DNA from: Spongiibacteraceae bacterium | GTDB lineage: Bacteria; Pseudomonadota; Gammaproteobacteria; Pseudomonadales; Dasaniaceae | NCBI GenBank assembly: GCA_028280715.1 | Contig: JANQLG010000050.1 | Coordinates: 62,001 to 126,000, forward strand | Reading direction: 5' to 3' | DNA: 64,000 nt | In this document: in pieces, positions 12,055 through 24,601 of the stretch | Numbering within the stretch: the first letter of the stretch is position 1 | How the letters are laid out: every line of letters starts with the position of its first letter | Made by a program: the position numbers and the translations under genes | The notes under the pieces: model-generated | What the model was told of the DNA's origin: nothing | What the model saw: only the letters and a program-made list of their open reading frames with translations | The model's database searches: none

Positions 12055-12417
12055 ATGCCAATACGTCAATTAAAACCTATTTTCTTTCTATTCTGCTTAT
12101 ATTTAATGGGTTGTGACTCTCCCGAAGAGCCTTACCCAATTGGTAAAGATGTATACAATCGTACCTGTCGGTACTGCCACAATACCCTGTTTGGCTACAC
12201 ACCGGGAATTGGCGATGTAGCAGCATGGGAAAGTAGAATTCAGCAGGGCTTACCTACACTGATTAATCACGCCATTTCTGGCTATGGACGCATGCCAGCC
12301 AAAGGAGGCAATACACAATTTACAGAACAGGAAATCGAGGAAGCCGTTAAATTTATGGTTTCTAAAGTAGCCACTATTAACGGAAATGAATTAGTAATTA
12401 AAGAAACTGAAGAATAA
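12055..12417 (+). CDS. c-type cytochrome lipoprotein, cytochrome c5-like
   Basis: A 120-residue protein with a short hydrophobic leader and a lipobox (LMGC, Cys20), so it is probably a lipid-anchored periplasmic electron carrier. One haem site, CRYCH (Cys38, Cys41, His42), is visible. A distal Met ligand in GYGRMPAKGG (Met80) is the signature of the cytochrome c5 branch. The length fits a single haem domain. The ribosome site is poor. It is flanked by an orphan membrane protein gene and a TonB receptor gene, with no terminal oxidase or dehydrogenase beside it. It could accept electrons from a periplasmic oxidoreductase encoded elsewhere. Confidence 0.8.
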   Translation: MPIRQLKPIFFLFCLYLMGCDSPEEPYPIGKDVYNRTCRYCHNTLFGYTPGIGDVAAWESRIQQGLPTLINHAISGYGRMPAKGGNTQFTEQEIEEAVKFMVSKVATINGNELVIKETEE

Positions 12418-12643
12418 ACTCTTGATATTTCGAGACACAAATCTGACGTTTAAAGCGCAAATCCATTTTTACATTGAAATAAACAGATCTTAATCAAAGC
12501 ACCTTCCGGTTTTACTTGAGAAGTAACAAGCCAACCCTTTACAATCTTTTTCGCATAATTGATTTAATCCAAGGAGACCCGAGAAACGTAATAATCATTT
12601 AACGTTACTAACCACACATAATATTTAATAAAAGGAAAGCGTT

Positions 12644-15103
12644 ATGAGACAACTATATAAGCACCTAATAGCCATCGGCATAACGCCCTTGGCAGCAGCA
12701 ATATCCACCAATCTGCATGCTCAAAACACTCAGCTAGAAGAAGTTGTTGTAACCGCCACCAAACGTGCTGAAAACCTGCAAGAAGTACCTGTAGCGGTAA
12801 CCGCTATGACGGCCGAAATGATGCAGGAGCGCGTTATTTTTGAAACCTCAGACTTGATGGGCACCGCACCTAACCTGCAAGTCACCTCTGCCTATTCAAC
12901 AACCCAGCCAAACTTCAGTATCCGCGGCATCAGTGTTGCCAACGAATTCAGTGCTGCTACAGCTTCTCCTGTGGGCGTATATGTGGATGAGGTATATCAA
13001 ACATTCCGCGCATCCCATGGTCAGCAACTTTATGACCTGGAACGTCTGGAAGTTATCCGCGGACCGCAAGGCACGCTATTTGGCCGTAATACTACTGGTG
13101 GTGCGATAAGCTTCGTCACCAAAAAACCAACATTGGAAGGTGGCACTTCTGGCTACATCACTGGCGGTATAGGTAACTACGATGCAGTTAATGCGACAGG
13201 CGCGTTAGATGTTACGCTTTCCGATAGTTTTGGCGTTCGATTTGCCGGTACTGTTAAGCAGGCCGATGGTTATACTGAAAATCCCATTGATGGCAAAGAC
13301 TACGGCGAAACTGACTCAGAGGCTTTTCGCTTATCCGCACTCTGGCAACCTAGTGATGATTTAAGTGCCCACTTCAAAATTTACACAGCAGAGAATGATG
13401 CTCTAGGTGACTTGCCCTATGGCATTGGTTACTTTCCAAATCAAACCAATATCCTGGGTTTCGGCACTCGCTTAGCTGGTGGCGGTGGTGCTCAACTTGA
13501 TGAGGACCAAGTCGAATCTGATTCCGGCAACCGCTACTACACCAAGTCTGATGGCTTCTCTATGACATGGGAATGGGTGCGTGGTGACTTCACCTTCACG
13601 TCGATTACCGGTTACGATGAAAATGAATATCGACTAAACCCTTTCGATTGTGATGGCACCGTATTGGATCTTTGTGCCATCAAATATGATTCTGATAGCG
13701 AGAGCTTCAATCAGGATTTCCGGGTTACTTACACAGATGACAAATTAAAATTTGTCGGCGGTTTGTACTTTGGCACCGAAGAAGTGAAAACACGCAATAC
13801 CCCAGACTTTTTCGGGCTACTCAATCCAGCAATTCCCGACAATTTATTTAATCCTATCTTGGGTGCTATTGACCCAAGTAACCCTGCTTTGGGTGTACTA
13901 CCCGCTGATGGTGCTTGCTCACCTTTAATTGTCAATCCTAATGGATTTATGGATACCCGAACTTTCTTTGAATTCCTAGGCTTGACCGCTGGTTGTACTG
14001 CAGCAGGGGCTCCACCATTCACTTCCATCCTGGCTGACCAGCGTTTTACTATCGAACGCCCATCACAAGCAATTTATGGGGAAGTGTCCTACGACTTTAG
14101 TGCCGAACTTACCGTAACCCTCGGCCTTCGCTACACCCATGACGAAGTAGAACTGAAAGATGCCCGTACCATTATCTTCAGTGAAGACGGCGTAGCCCGA
14201 GCCACTACTATCCCCTATAGTTTTCCGGCCGATTTAACTCTGCCAGCTGTTTCTGAAGATGAAGAAAGTGATGAAATTACCGGTCGCCTGATTGTCGATT
14301 ACCGCTTTACTGACAACATTATGGGCTATGCCAGCTACAGCCACGGTTATCGTGCCGGTACCTATAATGCTCTGGCCTACCAGGATATCAATCAGATTTT
14401 CTATCTTGAACCTGAGATCGTCGATGCCTATGAGCTGGGTATTAAATCCCGATTTATGGATGATCGTGTGCAATTGAACGCAGCACTATTCTACTCAGAC
14501 TACGAGAATCAACAGATTGCAGAAATTGTTGGCACCACATCATTCCTTCGCTCTGCTAACGGCGAACTATCAGGACTTGAAGTAGAATTGGTTGCATTGC
14601 CAACCTCAACTCTGGAAATCAGAGCCTCTCTGGGCTTACTGGAATCCGAATACGATAGCAACCAACAATTTACACCCACCGGTTTAGACATTGGAGGTAA
14701 TGACTTTCCAAATGCTCCGGACGAAACCTTTATCGCCGGTTTCACCTGGGACGCCTGGTCGAGCAATCAAGGTACTTTATCCATTTCAGCTGAAGCGAAA
14801 TACATGGGCGAATACGTATTCGATCCCTTTGGCGACTATGAAGGCAATTACCCTGGCGGTTCAGCCGATACCGGTAGTGGATTTGCTGCTTCTGCAGAAT
14901 TAGCCGAAGGTAACCCGGACTATTGGACCTACGATGCCCGTGCTACCTTTGAAGGCGCTAACTACTCAGTCAGCCTGTGGGGTAAAAACCTGAGCGACGA
15001 GTTTTACTATGTGTATGGCTTGAACCTTAATGCTTTCGGCCAAGACTACTTCACTCGTGGTATGCCTCGCACTTACGGCTTAGAAGTTACTTATAACTTC
15101 TAA
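12644..15103 (+). CDS. TonB-dependent outer-membrane receptor
   Basis: An 819-residue receptor with a signal peptide cleaved near NLHA (about residue 26) and a TonB-box-like EEVVVTATKR just after it. A full plug follows, with IRGPQGTLFGRNTTGGAIS (about 144-162), then a long barrel ending in EVTYNF. The EEVVVTAxKR and RGPQGTLFGRN features are those of the large family abundant in marine gammaproteobacteria. Barrel loops hold several Cys residues (FDCDGTVLDLC, PADGACS, TAGCTAAG), which could form extracellular disulfides. AAAGGAAAG lies 6 nt before the ATG. The xdhC-cmoA-mocA block lies downstream in the same direction, but a hairpin separates them. Confidence 0.9.
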   Translation: MRQLYKHLIAIGITPLAAAISTNLHAQNTQLEEVVVTATKRAENLQEVPVAVTAMTAEMMQERVIFETSDLMGTAPNLQVTSAYSTTQPNFSIRGISVANEFSAATASPVGVYVDEVYQTFRASHGQQLYDLERLEVIRGPQGTLFGRNTTGGAISFVTKKPTLEGGTSGYITGGIGNYDAVNATGALDVTLSDSFGVRFAGTVKQADGYTENPIDGKDYGETDSEAFRLSALWQPSDDLSAHFKIYTAENDALGDLPYGIGYFPNQTNILGFGTRLAGGGGAQLDEDQVESDSGNRYYTKSDGFSMTWEWVRGDFTFTSITGYDENEYRLNPFDCDGTVLDLCAIKYDSDSESFNQDFRVTYTDDKLKFVGGLYFGTEEVKTRNTPDFFGLLNPAIPDNLFNPILGAIDPSNPALGVLPADGACSPLIVNPNGFMDTRTFFEFLGLTAGCTAAGAPPFTSILADQRFTIERPSQAIYGEVSYDFSAELTVTLGLRYTHDEVELKDARTIIFSEDGVARATTIPYSFPADLTLPAVSEDEESDEITGRLIVDYRFTDNIMGYASYSHGYRAGTYNALAYQDINQIFYLEPEIVDAYELGIKSRFMDDRVQLNAALFYSDYENQQIAEIVGTTSFLRSANGELSGLEVELVALPTSTLEIRASLGLLESEYDSNQQFTPTGLDIGGNDFPNAPDETFIAGFTWDAWSSNQGTLSISAEAKYMGEYVFDPFGDYEGNYPGGSADTGSGFAASAELAEGNPDYWTYDARATFEGANYSVSLWGKNLSDEFYYVYGLNLNAFGQDYFTRGMPRTYGLEVTYNF

Positions 15104-15118
15104 AACGTCTCTTAATAT

Positions 15119-15155
15119 CGGGAGATAATTCAACCCCCTGTTGTCTTATCTCCCG
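15119..15155 (+). terminator. hairpin after the second TonB receptor gene
   Basis: A perfect 10-bp dyad CGGGAGATAA / TTATCTCCCG with a 17-nt loop begins 15 nt after the receptor stop. No U tract follows, so it may be a Rho-dependent or 3'-stabilising structure. Confidence 0.5.
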
Positions 15156-15259
15156 GTTCACATCTCAATCAAATCCCGATGTACAATTGGTAATATCTCA
15201 GCTGCGTTTTTTTATCGTATGCTAACGTTATTACTCGTGTTTTTAGTTGGTCACACATT

Positions 15260-16210
15260 ATGCGCACTCAAGACTATGAAGTTCTTTCTCATGCTCACCA
15301 ATGGCTGCAGCAAGGCGATAAGCCCTGGCTTTGCACCATTGTTAAAGCGATAGGTTCATCACCCAGGCCTATCGGCTCCATGCTCTCCTGTCTGGAAAAC
15401 GGCTTGCAAACCGGCTCCTTGTCTGGTGGTTGTGTTGAGGACGATTTGCTTGAACGCTTACATAACCAACAAATTCCCAACGACAAACCATTAGTTGTCG
15501 AATACGGTGTCACCCCCGAAGAAAATGAGCGATTAGGCCTACCCTGCGGTGGCCGCCTTTATATCCTGGTTCAACAATTAGATGAAGGTGACTTGCCTTG
15601 GCTGGATGAAATTATTAACGCGATGAATGAACGAAAATGCGTCATCCGCCACCTCGATATCAACAGTGGCAAATCGACTATTAAACCGGTTGAACACTTT
15701 GCCACTTTGTCTTTTGATGAAAGCTCACTACAACAGTGCTATGGCCCTCGCATGCGTATGCTACTGGTGGGAGCAGGACAATTAGGCCAAAGCATTGCTG
15801 AGTTGGCACTGGCAATGGATTATGAAGTACTGGTCACAGACACTCGTGAGAACATGTTAGCGCAATGGGAAGGCCCAGAAGTGTCTTTAATACAGGGCAT
15901 GCCGGACGACGTAGTATTACAAAATGCCGCCGATAAATTTTCTATCGTGATTACACTGACACACGACCCACGTATTGATGATATGGCGTTGATGGAAGCG
16001 TTGAAAACTGATGCCTGGTATGTCGGCTCATTAGGCTCTCAGCGAACCACAGACAAACGCTTAGAACGATTAAAAACATTGGGCCTGGAAGACGAACATA
16101 TTGCCAAACTGCATGCGCCCGTTGGATTAAAAATTGGCAGTAAAACGCCTATCGAGATTGCTGTTGCCGTAATGGCAGAGCTGACTCAACTGCGACGCCA
16201 GGCACAATAG
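15260..16210 (+). CDS. XdhC/CoxI family molybdenum-hydroxylase maturation factor
   Basis: A 316-residue protein with the N-terminal XdhC domain (SSPRPIGSMLSC, SLSGGCVEDDL) and a C-terminal Rossmann domain (LLVGAGQLGQS, about residues 170-180, then GSLGSQRTTDKR and LHAPVGLKIGSKTPIEIAVA). Family members bind molybdenum cofactor, help sulfurate it and insert it into xanthine dehydrogenase-type enzymes. It heads a tight same-strand group with the CmoA-like and MocA-like genes. No large molybdenum hydroxylase subunit, 2Fe-2S subunit or FAD subunit lies in the window, so the client is encoded elsewhere. The ATG at 15260 precedes the conserved domain by a normal distance. Confidence 0.88.
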   Translation: MRTQDYEVLSHAHQWLQQGDKPWLCTIVKAIGSSPRPIGSMLSCLENGLQTGSLSGGCVEDDLLERLHNQQIPNDKPLVVEYGVTPEENERLGLPCGGRLYILVQQLDEGDLPWLDEIINAMNERKCVIRHLDINSGKSTIKPVEHFATLSFDESSLQQCYGPRMRMLLVGAGQLGQSIAELALAMDYEVLVTDTRENMLAQWEGPEVSLIQGMPDDVVLQNAADKFSIVITLTHDPRIDDMALMEALKTDAWYVGSLGSQRTTDKRLERLKTLGLEDEHIAKLHAPVGLKIGSKTPIEIAVAVMAELTQLRRQAQ

Positions 16211-16267
16211 AAAACTATTGCGAATTATTTTTTAAAACAGCACTGAAAATATAAGACGGTTTGAGCC

Positions 16268-17017
16268 ATGAATCGGAATCGTGATGAACTTTTTAATAAC
16301 GACGAAACGAGTGACAGCGACTTCCAGTTTAATTCAGAAGTTGCGGCAGTCTTTGATGACATGCTTGCTCGCAGTATTCCTTTTTATCAGGAACAGCAGC
16401 ATTTAATTAGCACTATTGCCAGACAATTTTATGTGCCAGATACGCGCATCATCGACCTGGGCTGCTCCACTGGAACAACATTAACCAACCTGGCACTCAC
16501 TATTCCTGAAGCCAAAGAACTTATCGGTTATGACAATTCAGAGCCGATGCTCGATAAAGCCAGAAACAATATCAACAGCTCCAAACTTGAAGACCGCATT
16601 ACACTTCGCTGCGCTGATTTAAATAACGACCTGACAAACATCGACCTTAGTAACAGCAGTGTTGTAACGCTATGTTGGACTTTACAATTCATCCGGCCAT
16701 TAAAACGTGATTTATTAATTAAAACTATTTACGACAACATGGCCAATGGTGGAGTATTAATCATTACGGAAAAAGTGCTGACTAATGACTCCAATATGAA
16801 TCGCTTTTTTATTGATTTTTATTACGATTTCAAACGTAAAAACGGTTACTCTGAGGACGAAATTAATCGCAAACGCGAAGCGCTGGAGAATGTACTAATC
16901 CCTTACCGTTTTGATGAAAATTTTGAACTCTTTAGACGCAACGGTTTCGATATTGTCGAAACTTTTTTTCAGTGGTTCAATTTTGCTGGCATCCTTTGCG
17001 TTAAGCGTGCTTCCTAA
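16268..17017 (+). CDS. CmoA-like carboxy-S-adenosyl-methionine synthase homolog
   Basis: A 249-residue class I methyltransferase fold whose length and whole-length sequence follow E. coli CmoA. It has FNSEVAAVFDDMLARSIPFY near the N-terminus, SAM motif I IIDLGCSTGTTL (61-72), and YDFKRKNGYSEDEINRKRE with Arg203 at the place of CmoA Arg199, the residue that holds the carboxylate of carboxy-SAM. The end FQWFNFAG matches CmoA WFQCFNFG. CmoA converts SAM plus prephenate to carboxy-SAM, which CmoB uses for tRNA wobble uridine. No cmoB lies beside it here; it sits 57 nt after xdhC and 11 nt before mocA. It may be the housekeeping CmoA displaced, or a paralog recruited to another task. Confidence 0.75.
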   Translation: MNRNRDELFNNDETSDSDFQFNSEVAAVFDDMLARSIPFYQEQQHLISTIARQFYVPDTRIIDLGCSTGTTLTNLALTIPEAKELIGYDNSEPMLDKARNNINSSKLEDRITLRCADLNNDLTNIDLSNSSVVTLCWTLQFIRPLKRDLLIKTIYDNMANGGVLIITEKVLTNDSNMNRFFIDFYYDFKRKNGYSEDEINRKREALENVLIPYRFDENFELFRRNGFDIVETFFQWFNFAGILCVKRAS

Positions 17018-17028
17018 ACTTTAATCAC

Positions 17029-17649
17029 ATGCCATCAACACAATATACTCCATCACTCGACATCCCCATATTATTGCTGGCAGCCGGGCAATCGAAACGT
17101 TTTGGCCAGGAAAATAAGTTACTTGCCAAAATAAATGGTATTCCTTTATTACAGCACACCCTAGAAACGCTTAAACAAATCAACGATAACATTTGGGTTG
17201 TCACTAATGGAAAAGAGGACTTCTCCCAATCTATACTTGACGGTTGTCACACTGTAATCTGCGAAGATGCCCATCTCGGCATGGGGCATTCGTTAGCCGC
17301 TGGCGCAACGGCTATTTTGGAAAATAATTCCCGCGCACCTGCACTGATGATAGCCTTAGCCGATCAGCCTTTGGTTACAGCACAAAATTATCAGCAACTG
17401 CTCGACCGATATAATATCAACCAATGTTTGGTGGCATCCCGCTATCATGAGTCACTGGGGGTACCGGCAATTTTTCCACTTACCGCAGCCATGCAACTGA
17501 AATCCTTAACGGGCGATATCGGTGCCAGAAAAATTATTCGTCAATATACAGATCAAATAGACATTGTAGATATGCCCAATGCCGAACAGGATATCGATAC
17601 ACCTGAAGATTTGTTGTCTATTCAACAGCAGACGGCGAACAACAACTAA
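17029..17649 (+). CDS. MobA-like/MocA-like NTP transferase
   Basis: A 206-residue nucleotidyltransferase with the opening signature LLAAGQSKRFGQENKLLA (about 16-33) and LADQPLVTAQNYQ (about 108-120), typical of MocA/MobA. MocA attaches CMP to molybdopterin-molybdate to give MCD, the cofactor form used by xanthine dehydrogenase-type hydroxylases. The xdhC gene upstream supports MocA rather than MobA. The start lies 11 nt after the CmoA-like gene, so the three genes are probably one transcript. Its last four bases overlap the stop end of the convergent TetR gene. The ribosome site is weak, so translational coupling is likely. Confidence 0.82.
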   Translation: MPSTQYTPSLDIPILLLAAGQSKRFGQENKLLAKINGIPLLQHTLETLKQINDNIWVVTNGKEDFSQSILDGCHTVICEDAHLGMGHSLAAGATAILENNSRAPALMIALADQPLVTAQNYQQLLDRYNINQCLVASRYHESLGVPAIFPLTAAMQLKSLTGDIGARKIIRQYTDQIDIVDMPNAEQDIDTPEDLLSIQQQTANNN

Positions 17650-18347
17650 CCACAAACTTCCCTGAAACCGGCGGCGACAAAGGGAATCATTCGAGTATAG
17701 GCAGCATCAAAATCTGAAGACAAACATTTGCCACCCGACAGGCGATCAATACGCCCTGTTTGTGCGAAGGTCAGCGCCAGCGCTCCAGACATATAGTGAT
17801 AACACCAATGAATTTCTTCATCCTTGGCCTTGGGAAACACTTTTTTCAACGCCTCAATAAACTCACCTACTCGTTTGTCGAAATTTTCCTTCATCAACTG
17901 CTCATTCCATACCGGAGATGTCATCACATAAGCCAGCAATGCCATATAATTTTTCCAACCGGGGTCGCGGCTTTCCTGAGCAAATTTTAACGGCAGCAGA
18001 AAAGCTTCGATAATTTGCTCAAGGGTTTGTGTTTGGCCTTTTTTTAATTTCTTTTCGTTTTCACGAAGTAACTCACGGCGAGTATTACTCAACGATTCAG
18101 CGCGACGATTGAAAACGGCATAAAACAGATCGAGCTTTTTGCCAAAGTGATAATTCGCTAGCGCCACATCCACTTTAGCCCCCGTGGAAATTTGACGCAT
18201 AGTCACCCCATCGTAGCCATGCAGGGCAAAAAGTTCTTCTGCGACATCCAATATCCTTTCACTTTTTTCCCCCGTACCTCTTTTGCCTGTACCTTTCTTA
18301 CCTGCACCTTTGCTACTGGTGTTACTGCGCGCACCACTCCCGGCCAT
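17646..18347 (-). CDS. TetR/AcrR family regulator, likely controlling the symporter and third TonB receptor genes
   Basis: A 233-residue TetR protein with an HTH at VTMRQISTGAKVDVALANYH (about residues 49-68). A basic, low-complexity N-terminal tail (KGAGKKGTGKRGTG) precedes the HTH and may add DNA contacts. AGAGGT lies 6 nt before the ATG. The gene is divergent from the sodium:solute symporter gene, and the gap between them contains TTCAAC-N4-GTTGAA. The same site occurs twice before the third TonB receptor gene, so this protein is the natural candidate for binding it. The effector is unknown, probably the transported compound or a derivative. The gene ends convergently on mocA with a 4-bp overlap. 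Confidence 0.88.
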   Translation of the reverse strand: MAGSGARSNTSSKGAGKKGTGKRGTGEKSERILDVAEELFALHGYDGVTMRQISTGAKVDVALANYHFGKKLDLFYAVFNRRAESLSNTRRELLRENEKKLKKGQTQTLEQIIEAFLLPLKFAQESRDPGWKNYMALLAYVMTSPVWNEQLMKENFDKRVGEFIEALKKVFPKAKDEEIHWCYHYMSGALALTFAQTGRIDRLSGGKCLSSDFDAAYTRMIPFVAAGFREVCG

Positions 18348-18431
18348 ACTTACCTCTTGTCTAATGTCTCAACTGTATCTACACAACCGCTATCTTATTA
18401 CGGCTAAGGCAATAACAAAAATAAATGGCAG

Positions 18432-18460
18432 TTGATAATTCAACGTTTGTTGAATATAGT
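18432..18460 (+). promoter_or_regulatory. promoter with embedded operator, symporter gene
   Basis: TTGATA (18432-18437) and TATAGT (18455-18460) are separated by exactly 17 bp. The palindrome TTCAACGTTTGTTGAA (18439-18454) fills positions 2-17 of that spacer. A repressor bound here would block RNA polymerase directly. The start codon lies 38 nt downstream. Confidence 0.75.
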
Positions 18461-18498
18461 ATTGCCAATTCCACCCATATAATAAGAGGGGCGCTGTC

Positions 18499-19932
18499 GT
18501 GTCAGTGGAAATCTTTAAATATCTTGTCACTGCCGGCTACGTATTGCTGGTGTACTGGCTGTCCTGGATAGGCATGCGCAGAACGAAAGACATTCGCGGT
18601 TTTTCTATCGGCAACAAGGACATGAGTCCCTATCTGATCGGTATCACACTGGCTGCCTCCATTGCTTCTACTGCCACCTTTGTAATTAACCCGGGCTTTG
18701 TCTACGTTCATGGCATATCGGCTTACTTCCACTACGGCATTGCCGGTTCATTGGGAATTCTCTGTGCCTTTTTAACGCTGTCGCGAGGTTTTCTTCGTTT
18801 AGGTGAGGAGAAACAGGCGCTTACCATTCCCGAATGGATTTACCATCGCTATCAACATCGCGGTTTTAGTCTGTTTTTTGCCTTTATTAACCTGCTCTCA
18901 ATTACCTTTGTAGTGTTGATTTTGGTGGGATGTAGTTTATTAGTCACAGGGCTATTTCCCGTCGACCAGAAAACCGCTCTGATCATCGTACTGCTGTTTG
19001 TCTTTTCTTATGTGCTAATGGGAGGCACCTACGCTCACGCCTACACCAATACCTTGCAAGGCATCATGATGATGCTGGTCACTGTAATTCTGTTCGTAGA
19101 GGGCTTGCACTATTTTGAAAATGGCGTAATGGAATCATTACGTTCTGTCGGACAATCCTATGCATCTATTTTCAATCGTGACAGCAATCTTTATTACAGT
19201 TTTTTCTCTGTCTTCGGCAGCGGTTTTATCATTACCTTTGCATTGATGCTGCAGCCTCACATTCTGACCAAAGTGCTTTACCTGCGCAACGAAGGCGATA
19301 TCAATAAATTTATTGGCACCACCGTTGTCGTCGGTACACTCTTTACCCTGATTTTAGTTACTGGGATCTACGCGCGTTTAGCCGGGCTGGATATCCCTGA
19401 ACAGGACACAGTAGTCAGACAATATCTATTGCACGAATTTAGCGGTAGCCCCTTAGGCAACCTGTTATTAACATTTATATTTATTACGCTGTTAGCCGCC
19501 GGTATGAGCACACTGGACGGCATACTGGTCTCGCTATCCGCCATGGTAGTCAACGATATCGTCACCCCCCTTACAGGCAATAGACACCGGGGCCTGGCTT
19601 GGTCACGCTGGGTATTAATCGTCGTCGGTATTATCGGACTAATGCTTGCATGGAACCCGCCACCACTGATTGGGCTATTTGCACAAAAAGGCGTGTACGG
19701 ATTAGCTGCCGCCTCGGCTGCGCCTATTCTGTTTGGCATTTTGTATCGAGGTACAATGCCCCTGTGGTTAATTGCCGGAGCATCCTTTGCTGGTTTGGCG
19801 ATACACTTTTATCTCAACCTTTTTGCAGGAGTCATTAATCCTGCAGTTTCAGCCAGTTACGCTATTTTAGTGTCGTTAGCGATGACAGGAACCGGCCTAA
19901 TTTTCAGTCGCAGACTGAAAACCTCTACATAA
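18499..19932 (+). CDS. sodium:solute symporter family protein (SSS)
   Basis: A 477-residue polytopic inner-membrane protein with about 13 hydrophobic segments and SSS-family features. These are the YWLSWIGMRRTKDIRGFSIG start, a glycine-rich helix after LAASIASTATFVINPG, and a late AAGMSTLDGILVSLSAMVVN segment carrying the Ser/Thr residues that bind Na+ in this family. It should import a small organic solute with sodium. A GTG start at 18499 is chosen because AGAGGGG lies 7 nt upstream. It shares its spacer-embedded operator with the third TonB receptor gene, so an outer- and inner-membrane route for one compound, under one TetR regulator, is the best reading. The substrate is not evident. Confidence 0.88.
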   Translation: MSVEIFKYLVTAGYVLLVYWLSWIGMRRTKDIRGFSIGNKDMSPYLIGITLAASIASTATFVINPGFVYVHGISAYFHYGIAGSLGILCAFLTLSRGFLRLGEEKQALTIPEWIYHRYQHRGFSLFFAFINLLSITFVVLILVGCSLLVTGLFPVDQKTALIIVLLFVFSYVLMGGTYAHAYTNTLQGIMMMLVTVILFVEGLHYFENGVMESLRSVGQSYASIFNRDSNLYYSFFSVFGSGFIITFALMLQPHILTKVLYLRNEGDINKFIGTTVVVGTLFTLILVTGIYARLAGLDIPEQDTVVRQYLLHEFSGSPLGNLLLTFIFITLLAAGMSTLDGILVSLSAMVVNDIVTPLTGNRHRGLAWSRWVLIVVGIIGLMLAWNPPPLIGLFAQKGVYGLAAASAAPILFGILYRGTMPLWLIAGASFAGLAIHFYLNLFAGVINPAVSASYAILVSLAMTGTGLIFSRRLKTST

Positions 19933-19947
19933 TTTTTAAAAAAACCA

Positions 19948-20002
19948 TTGACTTTTCAACAAACGTTGAATATTGTCACTCCAAATTTCAACGAATGTTG
20001 AA
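19948..20002 (+). promoter_or_regulatory. promoter with two operators, third TonB receptor gene
   Basis: TTGACT (19948-19953), a 17-bp spacer and TATTGT (19971-19976) form the promoter. Operator 1, TTCAACAAACGTTGAA (19955-19970), occupies spacer positions 2-17, exactly as in the symporter promoter. Operator 2, TTCAACGAATGTTGAA (19987-20002), lies 32 bp further on, about three helical turns, just past the expected start of transcription. Confidence 0.78.
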
Positions 20003-20047
20003 TTTAGGAAAAATATAACAATAAGCTATCAATACAGAAGGTGACTT

Positions 20048-22378
20048 ATGATGATCACAACGCTTACAAAGAAAAAGCTTGCTGTTTCCATTTCATTAGC
20101 CAGTGTACTGACATTACCCTCAACAGCTGCATTTGCTCAAAGTGGCGCAGGCATGCTGGAAGAAGTGGTAGTAACCGCACAAAAACGCGAACAGAACCTG
20201 CAGGAAGTTCCAGTATCCATCACCTCCTATAGTGCTATTGAGCTGGAAAGCAAAGCCATTACCACCATTATCGATCTGGAAAAGAGTTCACCTAACACCC
20301 AGTTCCGCGCCAGCCGCGCCACCAACTCAACTCTAACAGCTTATATCAGGGGTGTTGGTCAACAAGATCCTCTATGGGGCTTTGAGCCTGGCGTTGGCGT
20401 TTACGTCGATGATGTTTATTACGCCAGACCTCAAGCTGCAGTACTCGATGTATTTGACGTTGAGCGCATTGAGGTGTTGCGCGGCCCCCAAGGAACACTG
20501 TACGGAAAAAATACTGTCGGCGGTGCAGTGAAATACATCACCAGGAAGATGGATGGCGAAGCTTCAGGAAAAGTTACATTAGCTGCAGGCAGCTATGGTC
20601 AACAGGACATTACTTTATCCGGCCAATTGCCTATTATTGAAAACCAACTGTATATCGGAGCTGCCATTGCCAAGCTGGATCGCGATGGCTATGATGATGT
20701 AAAAACCGGTTACGACATTACCACAGGTGAATTTAGTAGTAGTGAAGAAAACTACAACAAAGATGTCACTGTTAGTCGCATAAGTATCGAATACACACCA
20801 ACAGATCGACTTTTTTTTAGAATTGCAGCCGACAAAACCGACGATGAATCAAACCAGCCCTGTGGCACGCAATCCAACCAAACGCTCTTAACACATCCTG
20901 CAACAGGCGAATTATTTTTAGCTTCAAATGACCCCTATGATTCAGCCTGTGGCACCAGCCATAAATCCAATGTTGAAAATGAAGGTTATTCAATAACAGC
21001 TCAATATGATGTAAATGATGCCATCTCGCTCAAATATATTTATGCTGATCGTGAGGGCGAAACTCAACAATTCATCGATTTTGAAGGCACACCCCTCGAT
21101 GCCTTCGATGTGCCAGCTTCTTATACAGATGAACAGGAATCGCACGAGCTTCAAATTAATTTCAACTCAGGTAGATTAGCTATCGTGGGTGGGATTTACT
21201 ATTTTGAAGGCAACTCGGCGGGTGCTTTCGATGTTGTACTAAACGGCGCGCTAGCAGACCCTACCACCGTACCACCAACGCTAGACCCATTTATGGATGG
21301 AACGCATTTCGATCTGGCCATTGGCGGGGATGTTGATACAGAAAGTTTATCCGGCTATGTCAATGGCAGTTTTGAGCTAACACAGGCTTTCACTCTAACC
21401 GCTGGAGTAAGATTCACCGAAGACGAAAAAAATTCTAATATACAACGCTTTTCGTACATCACCACCAATTCTTTTCCCTATACCACAACGCAAGGTACCG
21501 GTTTTACTTTCGGAGATCCCGATGATGACACCTTACTTGGCGTAAGCACAGATATCACTGATAACGAAGCCAAAGATACATGGAATGAAGTCAGCCCTTC
21601 GATAAAAGTCGATTGGAAAATGAATGACAACATGATGTTCTACATCAGTTATGCAGAAGGCTTTAAGTCAGGTGGTTTTGATATGCGCGGTAATGCTGCC
21701 ACTAACCCCAATGTTGCCGATGGTTATGATCCTGAGATCGTTGAAACATGGGAAGTGGGTATGAAATCCCAATTACTGGATGATCGTTTGCGTTTAAACA
21801 TTACATTATTCGATATGGACTATGAAGATATGCAACTCACGGTACAAACAGCGCAGCCTGCACCGATCTTCTTTTCCTCTGATGTGGTTAATGCAGGTAC
21901 AGCTGAAATTAAGGGCTTTGAAGTGGAAGCACTGGCACAAATTACGGAAGGCTTCAGCACAACCTTTATGGCTGGTTATATGAACGCAGAACTAATCGAA
22001 GTTATTTCTGCTGGCGTGGATGTGTCAGACTCATGGGAAATGTTGAACGCCCCCGAATGGACAGGCCAACTGGGATTCAACTACGATATCAATCTGGGTA
22101 ATAATGGCAGCCTGAATCTCAACACTGCCGTTTCCTATCGCGATGCTACACGCAACTTCAACAATGTGACCTGTAGTTGTGATCAAAACAAAGAATATAC
22201 CGTCTGGGATACCAGCGCCAATTGGTATTCAGCCGATGACAAATGGACTGTTAGCCTGTTTTTGAAAAACCTCGGTAACACTCATTACAAAACAGGTGGC
22301 TATAATCTAGGTTCCGGTGAATTAGCCTTTTATGGCGCGCCCCGAACAATAACTGCCAGCGTATCGTACAACTTTTAA
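20048..22378 (+). CDS. TonB-dependent outer-membrane receptor
   Basis: A 776-residue receptor with a signal peptide ending at AAFAQ (about residue 30), then EEVVVTAQKREQNLQEVPVS, a plug with LRGPQGTLYGKNTVGGAVK (about 142-160) and a barrel ending VSYNF. Extracellular loop cysteines occur at QPCGTQ, SACGTS and VTCSCDQ. AAGGTG precedes two adjacent ATG codons; I used the first. The promoter carries two TetR-type operators, so it is repressed unless an inducer is present. Downstream lie an alpha/beta hydrolase and an enoyl-CoA hydratase family enzyme, which could process the imported compound. Confidence 0.9.
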   Translation: MMITTLTKKKLAVSISLASVLTLPSTAAFAQSGAGMLEEVVVTAQKREQNLQEVPVSITSYSAIELESKAITTIIDLEKSSPNTQFRASRATNSTLTAYIRGVGQQDPLWGFEPGVGVYVDDVYYARPQAAVLDVFDVERIEVLRGPQGTLYGKNTVGGAVKYITRKMDGEASGKVTLAAGSYGQQDITLSGQLPIIENQLYIGAAIAKLDRDGYDDVKTGYDITTGEFSSSEENYNKDVTVSRISIEYTPTDRLFFRIAADKTDDESNQPCGTQSNQTLLTHPATGELFLASNDPYDSACGTSHKSNVENEGYSITAQYDVNDAISLKYIYADREGETQQFIDFEGTPLDAFDVPASYTDEQESHELQINFNSGRLAIVGGIYYFEGNSAGAFDVVLNGALADPTTVPPTLDPFMDGTHFDLAIGGDVDTESLSGYVNGSFELTQAFTLTAGVRFTEDEKNSNIQRFSYITTNSFPYTTTQGTGFTFGDPDDDTLLGVSTDITDNEAKDTWNEVSPSIKVDWKMNDNMMFYISYAEGFKSGGFDMRGNAATNPNVADGYDPEIVETWEVGMKSQLLDDRLRLNITLFDMDYEDMQLTVQTAQPAPIFFSSDVVNAGTAEIKGFEVEALAQITEGFSTTFMAGYMNAELIEVISAGVDVSDSWEMLNAPEWTGQLGFNYDINLGNNGSLNLNTAVSYRDATRNFNNVTCSCDQNKEYTVWDTSANWYSADDKWTVSLFLKNLGNTHYKTGGYNLGSGELAFYGAPRTITASVSYNF

Positions 22379-22516
22379 CATCCGGTGGCCTCGTTTGTCA
22401 GCACCTATGTAGTCGACTTTTACATCCTCAAGACTTATTTTATGTAGGACATAAGTAATTGGTAGTAGTACATAGATAGTAATACATAGGTAGCTGGCTT
22501 TTTTAGAGTTTTATTA

Positions 22517-23404
22517 ATGTCTGTACACACTCATTCCGAATTCCAGGATTTTTGGTTTTCCACCCAGGACGGCTTATCATTATATGCCCGCGACTATCCG
22601 AATAACCGCGCCACACAAACCGTTATTTGTATACCAGGACTGACCAGAAATTCAGCCGACTTTGCCGATCTCTGCACACTTTTATCGAGTCAATTTCGTG
22701 TACTCGCCGTTGAGCTTAGAGGCCGAGGAAAATCAAATTACGACCCTAAACCGGAAAATTATTTACCCGCCACCTATGCTAACGATATTGTAAAGTTATT
22801 AGATGATCTGGATCTGCAGTCGGTTATTTTAATTGGGACATCACTCGGCGGCCTGGTATCAATGATCGCTTCTGCCATGCGCCCTAATCGTATCGACAAG
22901 ATCATTCTTAATGATATTGGCCCTGAAATTAATACCGAAGGCTTAGAGCGGATCAAAGAATATGTCTGTGATCCAGAAACAGTGACAACCTGGTCACAAG
23001 CCATTGAAAAAACTCGAAGCATTCTTAAGCGAGAATACCCGAAGTTTTCTGAACGAGATTGGGAAGCCTTCACCCGCAACCTTTATCGCGAAGATAATGA
23101 CGGACGCCCTGTCCTAAACTACGACCCAGCAATTGCTGTTCCAATGAAAAATGTAGCCTCATCAGACGTTACGGGAGACCTATGGCCAGTGTTTGATTTA
23201 ATCAAGCACCTTCCCATTCTGGTTTTTCGCGGCTGCCACAGTGACATTTTGTCTACTGAATGTGTTAGAAAAATGCGCAGCAAAAAGTCCGATATAAAGA
23301 CAGTAGAAATTACAGACTGTGGCCATGCACCACTATTGACTGAAGCTGAAGCTATTACCGCTATCACTCAGTTTCTAAACCTATACACTAATAGCGAGAA
23401 ATAA
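22517..23404 (+). CDS. alpha/beta hydrolase
   Basis: A 295-residue alpha/beta hydrolase with an oxyanion-loop stretch VICIPGLTRNS (about 36-46), the nucleophile elbow GTSLGG (Ser109), an acid residue likely in FRGCHSDILS and the catalytic His in CGHAPLL. No signal peptide is present, so it should act in the cytoplasm on an ester, lactone or similar bond. It follows the third TonB receptor gene after 138 nt and precedes the hydratase-family gene by 75 nt. All three are on the plus strand and could be one operon induced together. The catalytic triad is complete; the substrate is unknown. Confidence 0.85.
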   Translation: MSVHTHSEFQDFWFSTQDGLSLYARDYPNNRATQTVICIPGLTRNSADFADLCTLLSSQFRVLAVELRGRGKSNYDPKPENYLPATYANDIVKLLDDLDLQSVILIGTSLGGLVSMIASAMRPNRIDKIILNDIGPEINTEGLERIKEYVCDPETVTTWSQAIEKTRSILKREYPKFSERDWEAFTRNLYREDNDGRPVLNYDPAIAVPMKNVASSDVTGDLWPVFDLIKHLPILVFRGCHSDILSTECVRKMRSKKSDIKTVEITDCGHAPLLTEAEAITAITQFLNLYTNSEK

Positions 23405-23479
23405 CATCTCGAATATTTTACTCAGATACAGTTAGAATTGGCGTTTGTAAGCTAATCAACGCGTTTATTACAAATAATA

Positions 23480-24601
23480 ATGACTGACTCTGTACTATTT
23501 GAAGAAGTTTCTAGCAATGGCCAAAATGCCATTGGTGTCATTCTGCTAAATTCAGAAGCAACACTTAATGCCATTGATCTGCAGATGACCGATCAGATAA
23601 TGGAACAGCTTATTAGCTGGCAAAACAATGATCGTATTGTCGCTATATTTATTCACAGTTCGGGTGAAAAATCTTTTTGTCCCGGTGGAGATATTCAGCA
23701 GATCTATCACTCAATGGTCGAGCAATCAGCGAGTAACTGTGAATATGCTGAGGAATTTTTTATTCGCTTTTATCGTCTTGTCTACTTCGTCCACACCTAT
23801 TGCAAACCCACTATCGTATGGGGTAACGGTTATGCAATGGGCGGAGGCCTGGGTGTATTGGCAGGATGCAAACACCGTATTGCCACCGAAAATACTTGTA
23901 TTGCTATGCCAGAAGTCCGCATAGGGCTATTCCCCGATGCAGGAGGCAGTTATTTCCTCAACCGTATGCCCGGCTATTGCGGCAGATTTTTAGCCCTCAC
24001 CGGCATCAGCATCAACGCAACCGATAGTATCTATTCAGGTATCACCGATTATTTTATCAGTACAAACAAGAGGTTCGAAATCCTAACTGCATTAACAAAG
24101 ATTGATTGGCAGCGAGATAAAAACATGGACGATACCAGCATAAAACAACTGCTGTCATCATTTCAGGAGCAACACAAAGAACAAGACCAACAAAATCTAC
24201 CGACAGCGAAATTAAAATCTCATCGCCATATTATCGACCAGCTTTGTCAGGGTGACGATGTGAATATGATAATTCAACGCATCAGTAACTACATTACCAA
24301 TGATGAGTGGATGATAAAAGCGCAAAAGGGATTAAGCAAAGACTCGCCACTTGCCATTAAATGGATTTTTAAACAACTGCAATTAACTGCCAACTGTTCT
24401 TTAAAACAGGTATTTGAAAAAGAAATGATTCTGGCTACAAATATTGTCCATCATGGTGAATTCGCAGAAGGCATCCGCGCATTAATTATCGAGAAGGATC
24501 AACAACCCAATTGGAAGTTCAAATCATTAGACCAGGTACAAGATCGGGATATTGACCCATTGTTTCAAGCACCTTGGGCGTCCAATCCTTTATTCGCATA
24601 A
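23480..24601 (+). CDS. enoyl-CoA hydratase/isomerase family, 3-hydroxyisobutyryl-CoA hydrolase-like
   Basis: A 373-residue crotonase-fold protein. The stretch KSFCPGGDIQQIY, the oxyanion-hole region GNGYAMGGGLGVL and MPEVRIGLFPDAGGSYFL are those of the long 3-hydroxyisobutyryl-CoA hydrolase branch, which has an extra C-terminal helical region; the length fits. The known enzyme hydrolyses 3-hydroxyisobutyryl-CoA in valine breakdown, but paralogs act as hydratases on other acyl-CoAs. Here the genomic setting is catabolic (receptor, symporter, hydrolase), so a role in side-chain breakdown of the imported compound is as likely as valine use. The start ATG follows AATAATA without a strong ribosome site. 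Confidence 0.8.
   Translation: MTDSVLFEEVSSNGQNAIGVILLNSEATLNAIDLQMTDQIMEQLISWQNNDRIVAIFIHSSGEKSFCPGGDIQQIYHSMVEQSASNCEYAEEFFIRFYRLVYFVHTYCKPTIVWGNGYAMGGGLGVLAGCKHRIATENTCIAMPEVRIGLFPDAGGSYFLNRMPGYCGRFLALTGISINATDSIYSGITDYFISTNKRFEILTALTKIDWQRDKNMDDTSIKQLLSSFQEQHKEQDQQNLPTAKLKSHRHIIDQLCQGDDVNMIIQRISNYITNDEWMIKAQKGLSKDSPLAIKWIFKQLQLTANCSLKQVFEKEMILATNIVHHGEFAEGIRALIIEKDQQPNWKFKSLDQVQDRDIDPLFQAPWASNPLFA

Follow-up and report, generated by a model that had tools for sequence, protein, structure and literature searches.

In polysaccharide utilisation loci, an outer-membrane receptor is combined with a polymer-cutting enzyme and a dedicated regulator. The locus proposed here would follow the same working scheme with a polyester as the polymer, but the SusD-like partner of polysaccharide utilisation loci was not seen at it. 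Poly(3-hydroxybutyrate) (PHB) is a polyester that is widespread in nature and is also sold as a biodegradable plastic, and its depolymerases are well studied. A TonB receptor for a lignin-derived aromatic has been reported (PMC6874591), and the proposed locus, with a polyester as its polymer, can be likened to it. Alcanivorax sp. 24 is a marine polyester degrader with a PHB exoproteome, for which importers of 3-hydroxybutyrate and 3-hydroxyvalerate have been proposed; these are substrate-binding components of membrane transporters, and the text contains none of the words TonB, symporter and TetR (PMC7187450). Among regulators, the TetR-family protein PhaD has been linked to PHA (PMC7204398) and PhaR regulates intracellular PHA (PMC12542648); both act on storage-polymer genes, whereas the regulon described here would comprise import genes and, in relatives, a secreted depolymerase. 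No description of the passage of PHB oligomers through the Gram-negative outer membrane, or of their sensing, was found in the literature searched, which included parts of PMC7830162, PMC13372988, PMC7187450, PMC7204398, PMC10882806 and PMC13253662, nor did this partly available literature contain the operator, the regulon or the polyester link presented below.

Operators and promoters of the TetR, symporter and receptor genes

The window (the whole stretch of 64,000 nucleotides analysed, from a Spongiibacteraceae bacterium) contains the following features around three copies of the palindrome TTCAAC-N4-GTTGAA.

17646..18347, minus strand: TetR-family repressor gene, PsrA-like (TetR_N + TetR_C_30; PF00440 45.4 bits, cut-off 24; PF17939 118.7 bits)
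18432..18460, plus strand: symporter promoter TTGATA-17-TATAGT (promoter scan; register conserved in relatives)
18439..18454: operator 1, TTCAACGTTTGTTGAA (exact pattern match; site kept in 37/37 loci)
18499..19932, plus strand: sodium:solute symporter gene with a GTG start, divergent from the TetR gene (PF00474 107.6 bits, cut-off 22.8)
19948..19976, plus strand: receptor promoter TTGACT-17-TATTGT (promoter scan; TTG in register at 21/24 distinct first sites of relatives)
19955..19970: operator 2, TTCAACAAACGTTGAA (exact pattern match; downstream sites in relatives)
19987..20002: operator 3, TTCAACGAATGTTGAA (offset by +32 bp from operator 2; double site recurs in 28/37 loci)
20048..22378, plus strand: TonB-dependent receptor gene (plug PF07715 64.3 bits, barrel PF00593 137.2 bits, both over cut-off)
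22517..23404, plus strand: alpha/beta hydrolase gene (domain match; homologue beside receptor, ligase or symporter in many relatives)
23480..24601, plus strand: ECH_2 (3-hydroxyisobutyryl-CoA-hydrolase-like) gene (domain match; membership doubtful)

The sequence-only reading that drew attention to this locus proved accurate in its description of the DNA: the palindrome matches exactly at all three positions, it fills positions 2–17 of both 17-bp promoter spacers when the register is followed base by base, operator 3 starts 32 bp past the start of operator 2, and the domain scores bear out the TetR_N plus TetR_C_30, SSF and TonB receptor gene calls. In the symporter promoter, TTGATA (18432–18437) and TATAGT (18455–18460) flank a spacer at 18438–18454; in the receptor promoter, TTGACT (19948–19953) and TATTGT (19971–19976) flank a spacer at 19954–19970; and operator 2 reads as the exact reverse complement of operator 1. 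A search for the operator as text in papers returned nothing relevant among the matches listed.

The palindrome occurs three times in the window versus never in 100 dinucleotide shuffles, and the whole genome (3,834,263 bases) holds only these three exact matches, all at the TetR/symporter/receptor locus, whereas the reversed pattern, used as a control, matched once. Sites with one mismatch are common by chance (24 further ones in the genome), which is the one point in favour of reading the palindromes as chance occurrences; three exact sites at a single locus, their absence from the shuffles and their conservation across the loci examined led us to reject that reading, to which we assign next to no probability. 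The one-mismatch sites themselves look like chance, because 23 of the 24 fall inside mechanical ORFs of at least 60 aa. Each of them was placed in a search for further regulon members in this genome and none was accepted: the sole site outside ORFs (L098) has no -35/-10 in register, and the one with the best-looking core (G000:C4:49012) lies inside an ORF.

Promoter hexamers by themselves are poor evidence, a hexamer scan of 17000–24000 having found 21 promoter-like sites against 15.4 expected; the register at the operators is convincing because it is conserved in relatives. An operator of a TetR protein within a promoter spacer is ordinary. From this register we soundly infer that repression would act by a direct block of RNA polymerase: since the operator is the spacer itself at both window promoters, a bound dimer should exclude the polymerase from the symporter and receptor promoters. 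The second receptor site would span roughly +5 to +20 of a transcript predicted to start near 19983, so placed that another dimer, bound about three turns of the helix further on, would cover the transcript start and should tighten repression.

The proteins encoded at the locus are assigned at the family level. The symporter scored 95.9 bits against the stricter model TIGR00813, below its cut-off of 184, and had no match among PDB sequences; the receptor reached no substrate-subfamily cut-off among the models listed. The alpha/beta hydrolase has no signal peptide as judged by eye, and the 138-bp gap before its gene suggests that it is probably part of the receptor's transcript. Membership of the ECH_2 gene in the module is doubtful, with no match at 1e-10 in loci L012–L043. 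Upstream of the TetR gene, the region 12055–17649 encodes a cytochrome c, a second TonB receptor and XdhC-, CmoA- and MocA-like proteins (CmoA-like 234.9, cut-off 193.3) and looks like a molybdenum-hydroxylase maturation cluster.

Conservation of the operator and its association with the TetR gene

Related loci were collected from a TetR search of genome contigs (29 loci), from whole genomes of the same family and order and from fetched neighbourhoods. The conservation set comprised 37 loci, namely the window and 36 loci with a symporter and distinct symporter promoters; copies of retained loci (L012–L014, L054, L063, L070 and L079–L081) were left out, as were loci with no symporter match in the available stretch (L068, L072 and L038–L043) and L025, which begins inside the TetR gene. 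The site was found in all 37 symporter promoters at no more than one mismatch, the opposite of the loss in gene-keeping relatives by which the earlier proposal could have failed. Across these loci, the half-sites carry a mean of 1.99 bits of information, the N4 core 0.88, the upstream flank 0.13 and the downstream flank 0.22; because the flanks are near random while the half-sites are almost invariant, common descent alone was rejected as an explanation. The core is usually R-NN-Y, with exceptions such as TTCAACTCTTGTTGAA in L015. A TTG stands in the -35 register in 31/37 loci versus at most 3/37 at any of 31 other offsets, and TAnnnT follows the operator directly in 27/37 symporter promoters.

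The downstream arrangement also recurs. At least two sites lie within 420 bp downstream of the symporter in 28/37 loci, with a single spacing of 29–34 bp, most often 32, in 25 of these 28 (20, 63 and 21+30 in the other three), and TTG is in register at 21 of the 24 distinct first sites. At the most common spacing of 32 bp, the two sites are roughly three turns of the helix apart, and two dimers could therefore share one face of the DNA. Nine loci have no downstream double site. In L021 and L066 the contig ends before the receptor-site region is reached; in L034, L036 and L037 the gene after the symporter is that of the hydrolase, not of the receptor; L057, L064 and L067 have the receptor elsewhere, with the sites standing before it there. 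In L028, the receptor is downstream of the symporter and has no site, which counts against the regulon. Receptor sequences differ widely between loci (36–75% identity to that of the window).

Among more distant loci, L039 (a Hyphomonas MAG) and L041 (an alphaproteobacterial MAG) carry the site between the TetR gene and an MFS transporter gene and again before a TonB receptor gene, the MFS transporter thus taking the symporter's place under the operator; no operator was found in L040, L042 or L043. Two loci differ in gene content or integrity: in L031 (4452–5883; gamma proteobacterium NOR5-3) the symporter match is split in two, and the gene may be broken or misassembled, and L064 (12138–14018) encodes, between symporter and receptor, a protein that matches sulfotransferase and methyltransferase domains. 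Cultured strains with the module include Zhongshania antarctica DSM 25701 (L018) and Spongiibacter marinus DSM 17750 (L019).

To relate the site to the regulator, genomes of the order with a TetR match at E <= 1e-50 were taken as TetR-bearing (27 of 293). An exact site is present in 23/27 TetR-bearing versus 76/266 TetR-lacking genomes (Fisher p 1.1e-8, relatedness ignored). The TetR-bearing genomes together contain 61 exact sites, of which 58 lie in the module, two at the depolymerase gene of G140 and one is unexplained; this last site (G012:C5:9855–9870), the single match outside the module and the depolymerase locus, has the N4 TTCG and not R-NN-Y. The 76 TetR-lacking genomes with a site would be expected if the sites belonged to another regulator and the neighbouring TetR protein had a different target. 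However, the sites accompany the TetR gene in 23 of 27 genomes; in G001, where the TetR gene lies apart from the symporter, it keeps its own site; and the four TetR-bearing genomes with no exact site all belong to one genus (f44), whose diverged TetR protein (50–54% identical) goes with a variant site. In six TetR-lacking genomes chosen for having several sites, the 19 sites were scattered and none was paired. We regard a different regulator as very improbable. With the conserved sites, the promoter register and the TetR co-occurrence, the earlier suggestion that the TetR, symporter and receptor genes constitute one regulon is strongly supported by these genome comparisons, and we take the regulon to be near certain.

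The reversed control pattern was itself notable in these counts: AAGTTG-N4-CAACTT occurs 7, 13 and 11 times in G080, G179 and G218, which belong to one genus (f36 g59), versus 0–2 times in the other genomes of the table, and may be the site of a separate regulator or a repeat.

With regard to carriage by viruses and plasmids, a TetR profile search of viral contigs found no relative, and a search of plasmids found two distant homologues (35–41%) with no operator at up to one mismatch and without the module as such.

The TetR protein and known regulators

The predicted structure of the TetR protein (pLDDT 85.5) consists of helices only and is closest to NicR2 (TM by query 0.73–0.75) and PA3006 (TM 0.72). 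NicR2 (5fgl, 5fhp), a TetR regulator of nicotine degradation, is the nearest solved fold, but it shares only 25–26% identity with the window protein and its substrate is different. PA3006 (2fbq) is PsrA of Pseudomonas. PsrA is also the best NCBIfam match, yet the score of 100.6 bits against NF053516 is far from the curated cut-off of 300; the window protein and PsrA have in common the TetR/PsrA-like fold and sequence and the stretch NYHFG. We conclude that the protein is PsrA-like but, by sequence, not PsrA. The sites of PsrA, given in PMC3510223 as (G/C)AAAC-N2-4-GTTT(G/C), for example CAAACAAGTGTTTG, share the inner AAC-N4-GTT with the window operator, whereas the half-site is TTCAAC in the window and its relatives; the window operator therefore agrees with PsrA sites on the inside (AAC/GTT), differs on the outside and does not match the PsrA motif.

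A fatty-acid switch of the PsrA type, in which the TetR protein would sense fatty acyl-CoA and the module would take up fatty acids or lipids, draws on this kinship in family match and fold and on the acyl-CoA ligase genes in the modules of many relatives. The shortfall in the PsrA score and the differing operator argue against it, as do the depolymerase genes found under the operator (below). We consider such a switch improbable. PsrA itself governs a broad fatty-acid regulon, in contrast to the three sites at a single locus in the window's genome.

Depolymerase, ligase and dehydrogenase genes beside the operator

In G140, both exact sites outside the module stand upstream of a depolymerase gene, facing it with the promoter TTGACA-A-TTCAACAAACGTTGAA; the encoded protein (685 aa) contains an Esterase_PHB domain and appears by eye to have a signal peptide. 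In G001, a depolymerase gene with the promoter TTGACA-G-TTCAACAACTGTTGAG adjoins the symporter gene. In the four f44 genomes, the gene for the TetR homologue adjoins that for a 55–58% homologue of the depolymerase, and two variant sites, for example TTCAACGCTTGATGAG and TTCATCGGATGATGAA, are paired in the promoter of the latter gene; upstream of this gene (L074–L077), TTCATC-N4-GATGAA is seen beside a TTCAAC-type site, and the half-site seems to have shifted together with the diverged TetR protein. A flavin monooxygenase-like (FMO-like) protein is encoded divergently from an operator-bearing depolymerase gene in L058 (7841–9703).

A class-wide TetR search, made after the PHB idea had formed, gave homologues in 6/369 genomes, five of them outside the order. 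Two of these, G546 and G641, which belong to the same genus, each have at a single locus a depolymerase gene, two operators, the TetR gene, an operator, the symporter gene, two operators and the receptor, ligase and hydrolase genes; the two sites before the depolymerase gene are 32 bp apart, with spacers of 17 and 18 bp. Three other, more distant class-level homologues (39–46%) have neither module nor site, apart from weak receptor- and ligase-like matches in one.

All five depolymerases tested pass the 150-bit cut-off of NF050058, a short-chain PHA depolymerase model marked hypoth_equivalog (G140 174.4, G206 (L074) 177.6, G001 165.4, G546 167.0 and G641 166.5), their secretion being judged by eye only. 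A depolymerase over cut-off occurs in 7/27 TetR-bearing versus 24/266 other genomes (Fisher p 0.014, relatedness ignored), a weak association because four of the seven genomes belong to one genus. In six of these seven, a depolymerase gene carries the site or the variant pair. The seventh, G231, has two depolymerase genes within about 12 kb of the TetR gene, the nearer about 3 kb from the hydrolase gene, with no site at up to one mismatch, nor at two with a good -35.

Genes for further metabolism accompany the module. In six loci (L023, L029, L031, L032, L033 and L035), neighbour clustering revealed an AMP-forming acyl-CoA ligase gene flanked by the receptor and hydrolase genes; L030 has the ligase gene next to the receptor, where the contig ends, and L038 has it flanked by the TetR and hydrolase genes. 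Cluster members in L019 and L020 stand apart. In L054 and L081, the counterparts have just 25% identity. Other loci contain more ligase genes, with a separate operator before ligase and hydrolase in L067. An SDR gene lies beside the TetR gene in L015–L021, and 5/7 module SDRs tested pass the cut-off (307.05) of the 3-hydroxybutyrate dehydrogenase model TIGR01963 (L019 343.6, L055 347.1, L079 353.1, L071 363.2 and L073 361.0), those of G546 and G641 failing it and being FabG-like. Searches of the window's own genome found nothing for PF10503, nothing above the NF050058 cut-off and no match to the ligase closer than 30%; the 3-hydroxybutyrate dehydrogenase of this genome (336.1 bits) is encoded on another contig, with no exact operator there. 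These results count against the PHB explanation given below.

The operator before relatives' acyl-CoA ligase and hydrolase genes and PHB-type depolymerase genes offers a candidate for the solute that the sequence-only reading had left unknown. Judged on such gene contexts, a link of the regulon to PHB is likely, and we lean towards the explanation that this is the regulon of a PsrA-like TetR protein for an extracellular polyester, most likely poly(3-hydroxybutyrate), importing its oligomers and monomers. The regulon could instead be real and serve another ester or hydroxyacid, such as feruloyl or other aromatic esters or other hydroxyalkanoates, with the depolymerase-like proteins as its esterases. 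PF10503-type proteins include feruloyl esterases, one of which is the esterase's second PDB match; the best solved relatives of the ligase are fatty-acyl- and feruloyl-CoA synthetases; 20 of the 27 TetR-bearing genomes, including the window's, have no depolymerase over cut-off; and the variability of the receptors points in the same direction. The passing scores of every esterase tested on the short-chain PHA depolymerase model and of most module SDRs on the 3-hydroxybutyrate dehydrogenase model speak for PHB instead, and we consider another substrate unlikely, though it is the rival that we take most seriously.

In the PHB explanation, the dimer of the PsrA-like TetR protein would bind TTCAAC-N4-GTTGAA, usually with an R-NN-Y core, until released by a substrate-derived ligand, for which a 3-hydroxyacid or its CoA thioester is our guess. 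A secreted depolymerase, in some relatives, would make soluble oligomers; the TonB-dependent receptor would bring these PHB fragments through the outer membrane into the periplasm; the Na+ symporter would carry small acids inwards across the inner membrane; any remaining esters would be cleaved in the cytoplasm by the hydrolase; and 3-hydroxybutyrate dehydrogenase, acyl-CoA ligase or both would pass the products to central metabolism. As a complete polyester-utilisation locus, in which a TetR switch with operators in promoter spacers governs depolymerisation, TonB-dependent import of 3-hydroxybutyrate oligomers, Na+ symport and intracellular hydrolysis and activation, and in which lineages with no depolymerase, such as the window's, scavenge oligomers released by others, the scheme is put forward tentatively, at slightly less than an even chance. 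For the window's own organism, our best guess is that it scavenges soluble products made by others.

If this is true, the operator would serve as a genomic marker of organisms that use PHB and its breakdown products and would point to the receptor, symporter and hydrolase genes by which these products are used, and the locus would be for polyesters what polysaccharide utilisation loci are for polysaccharides.
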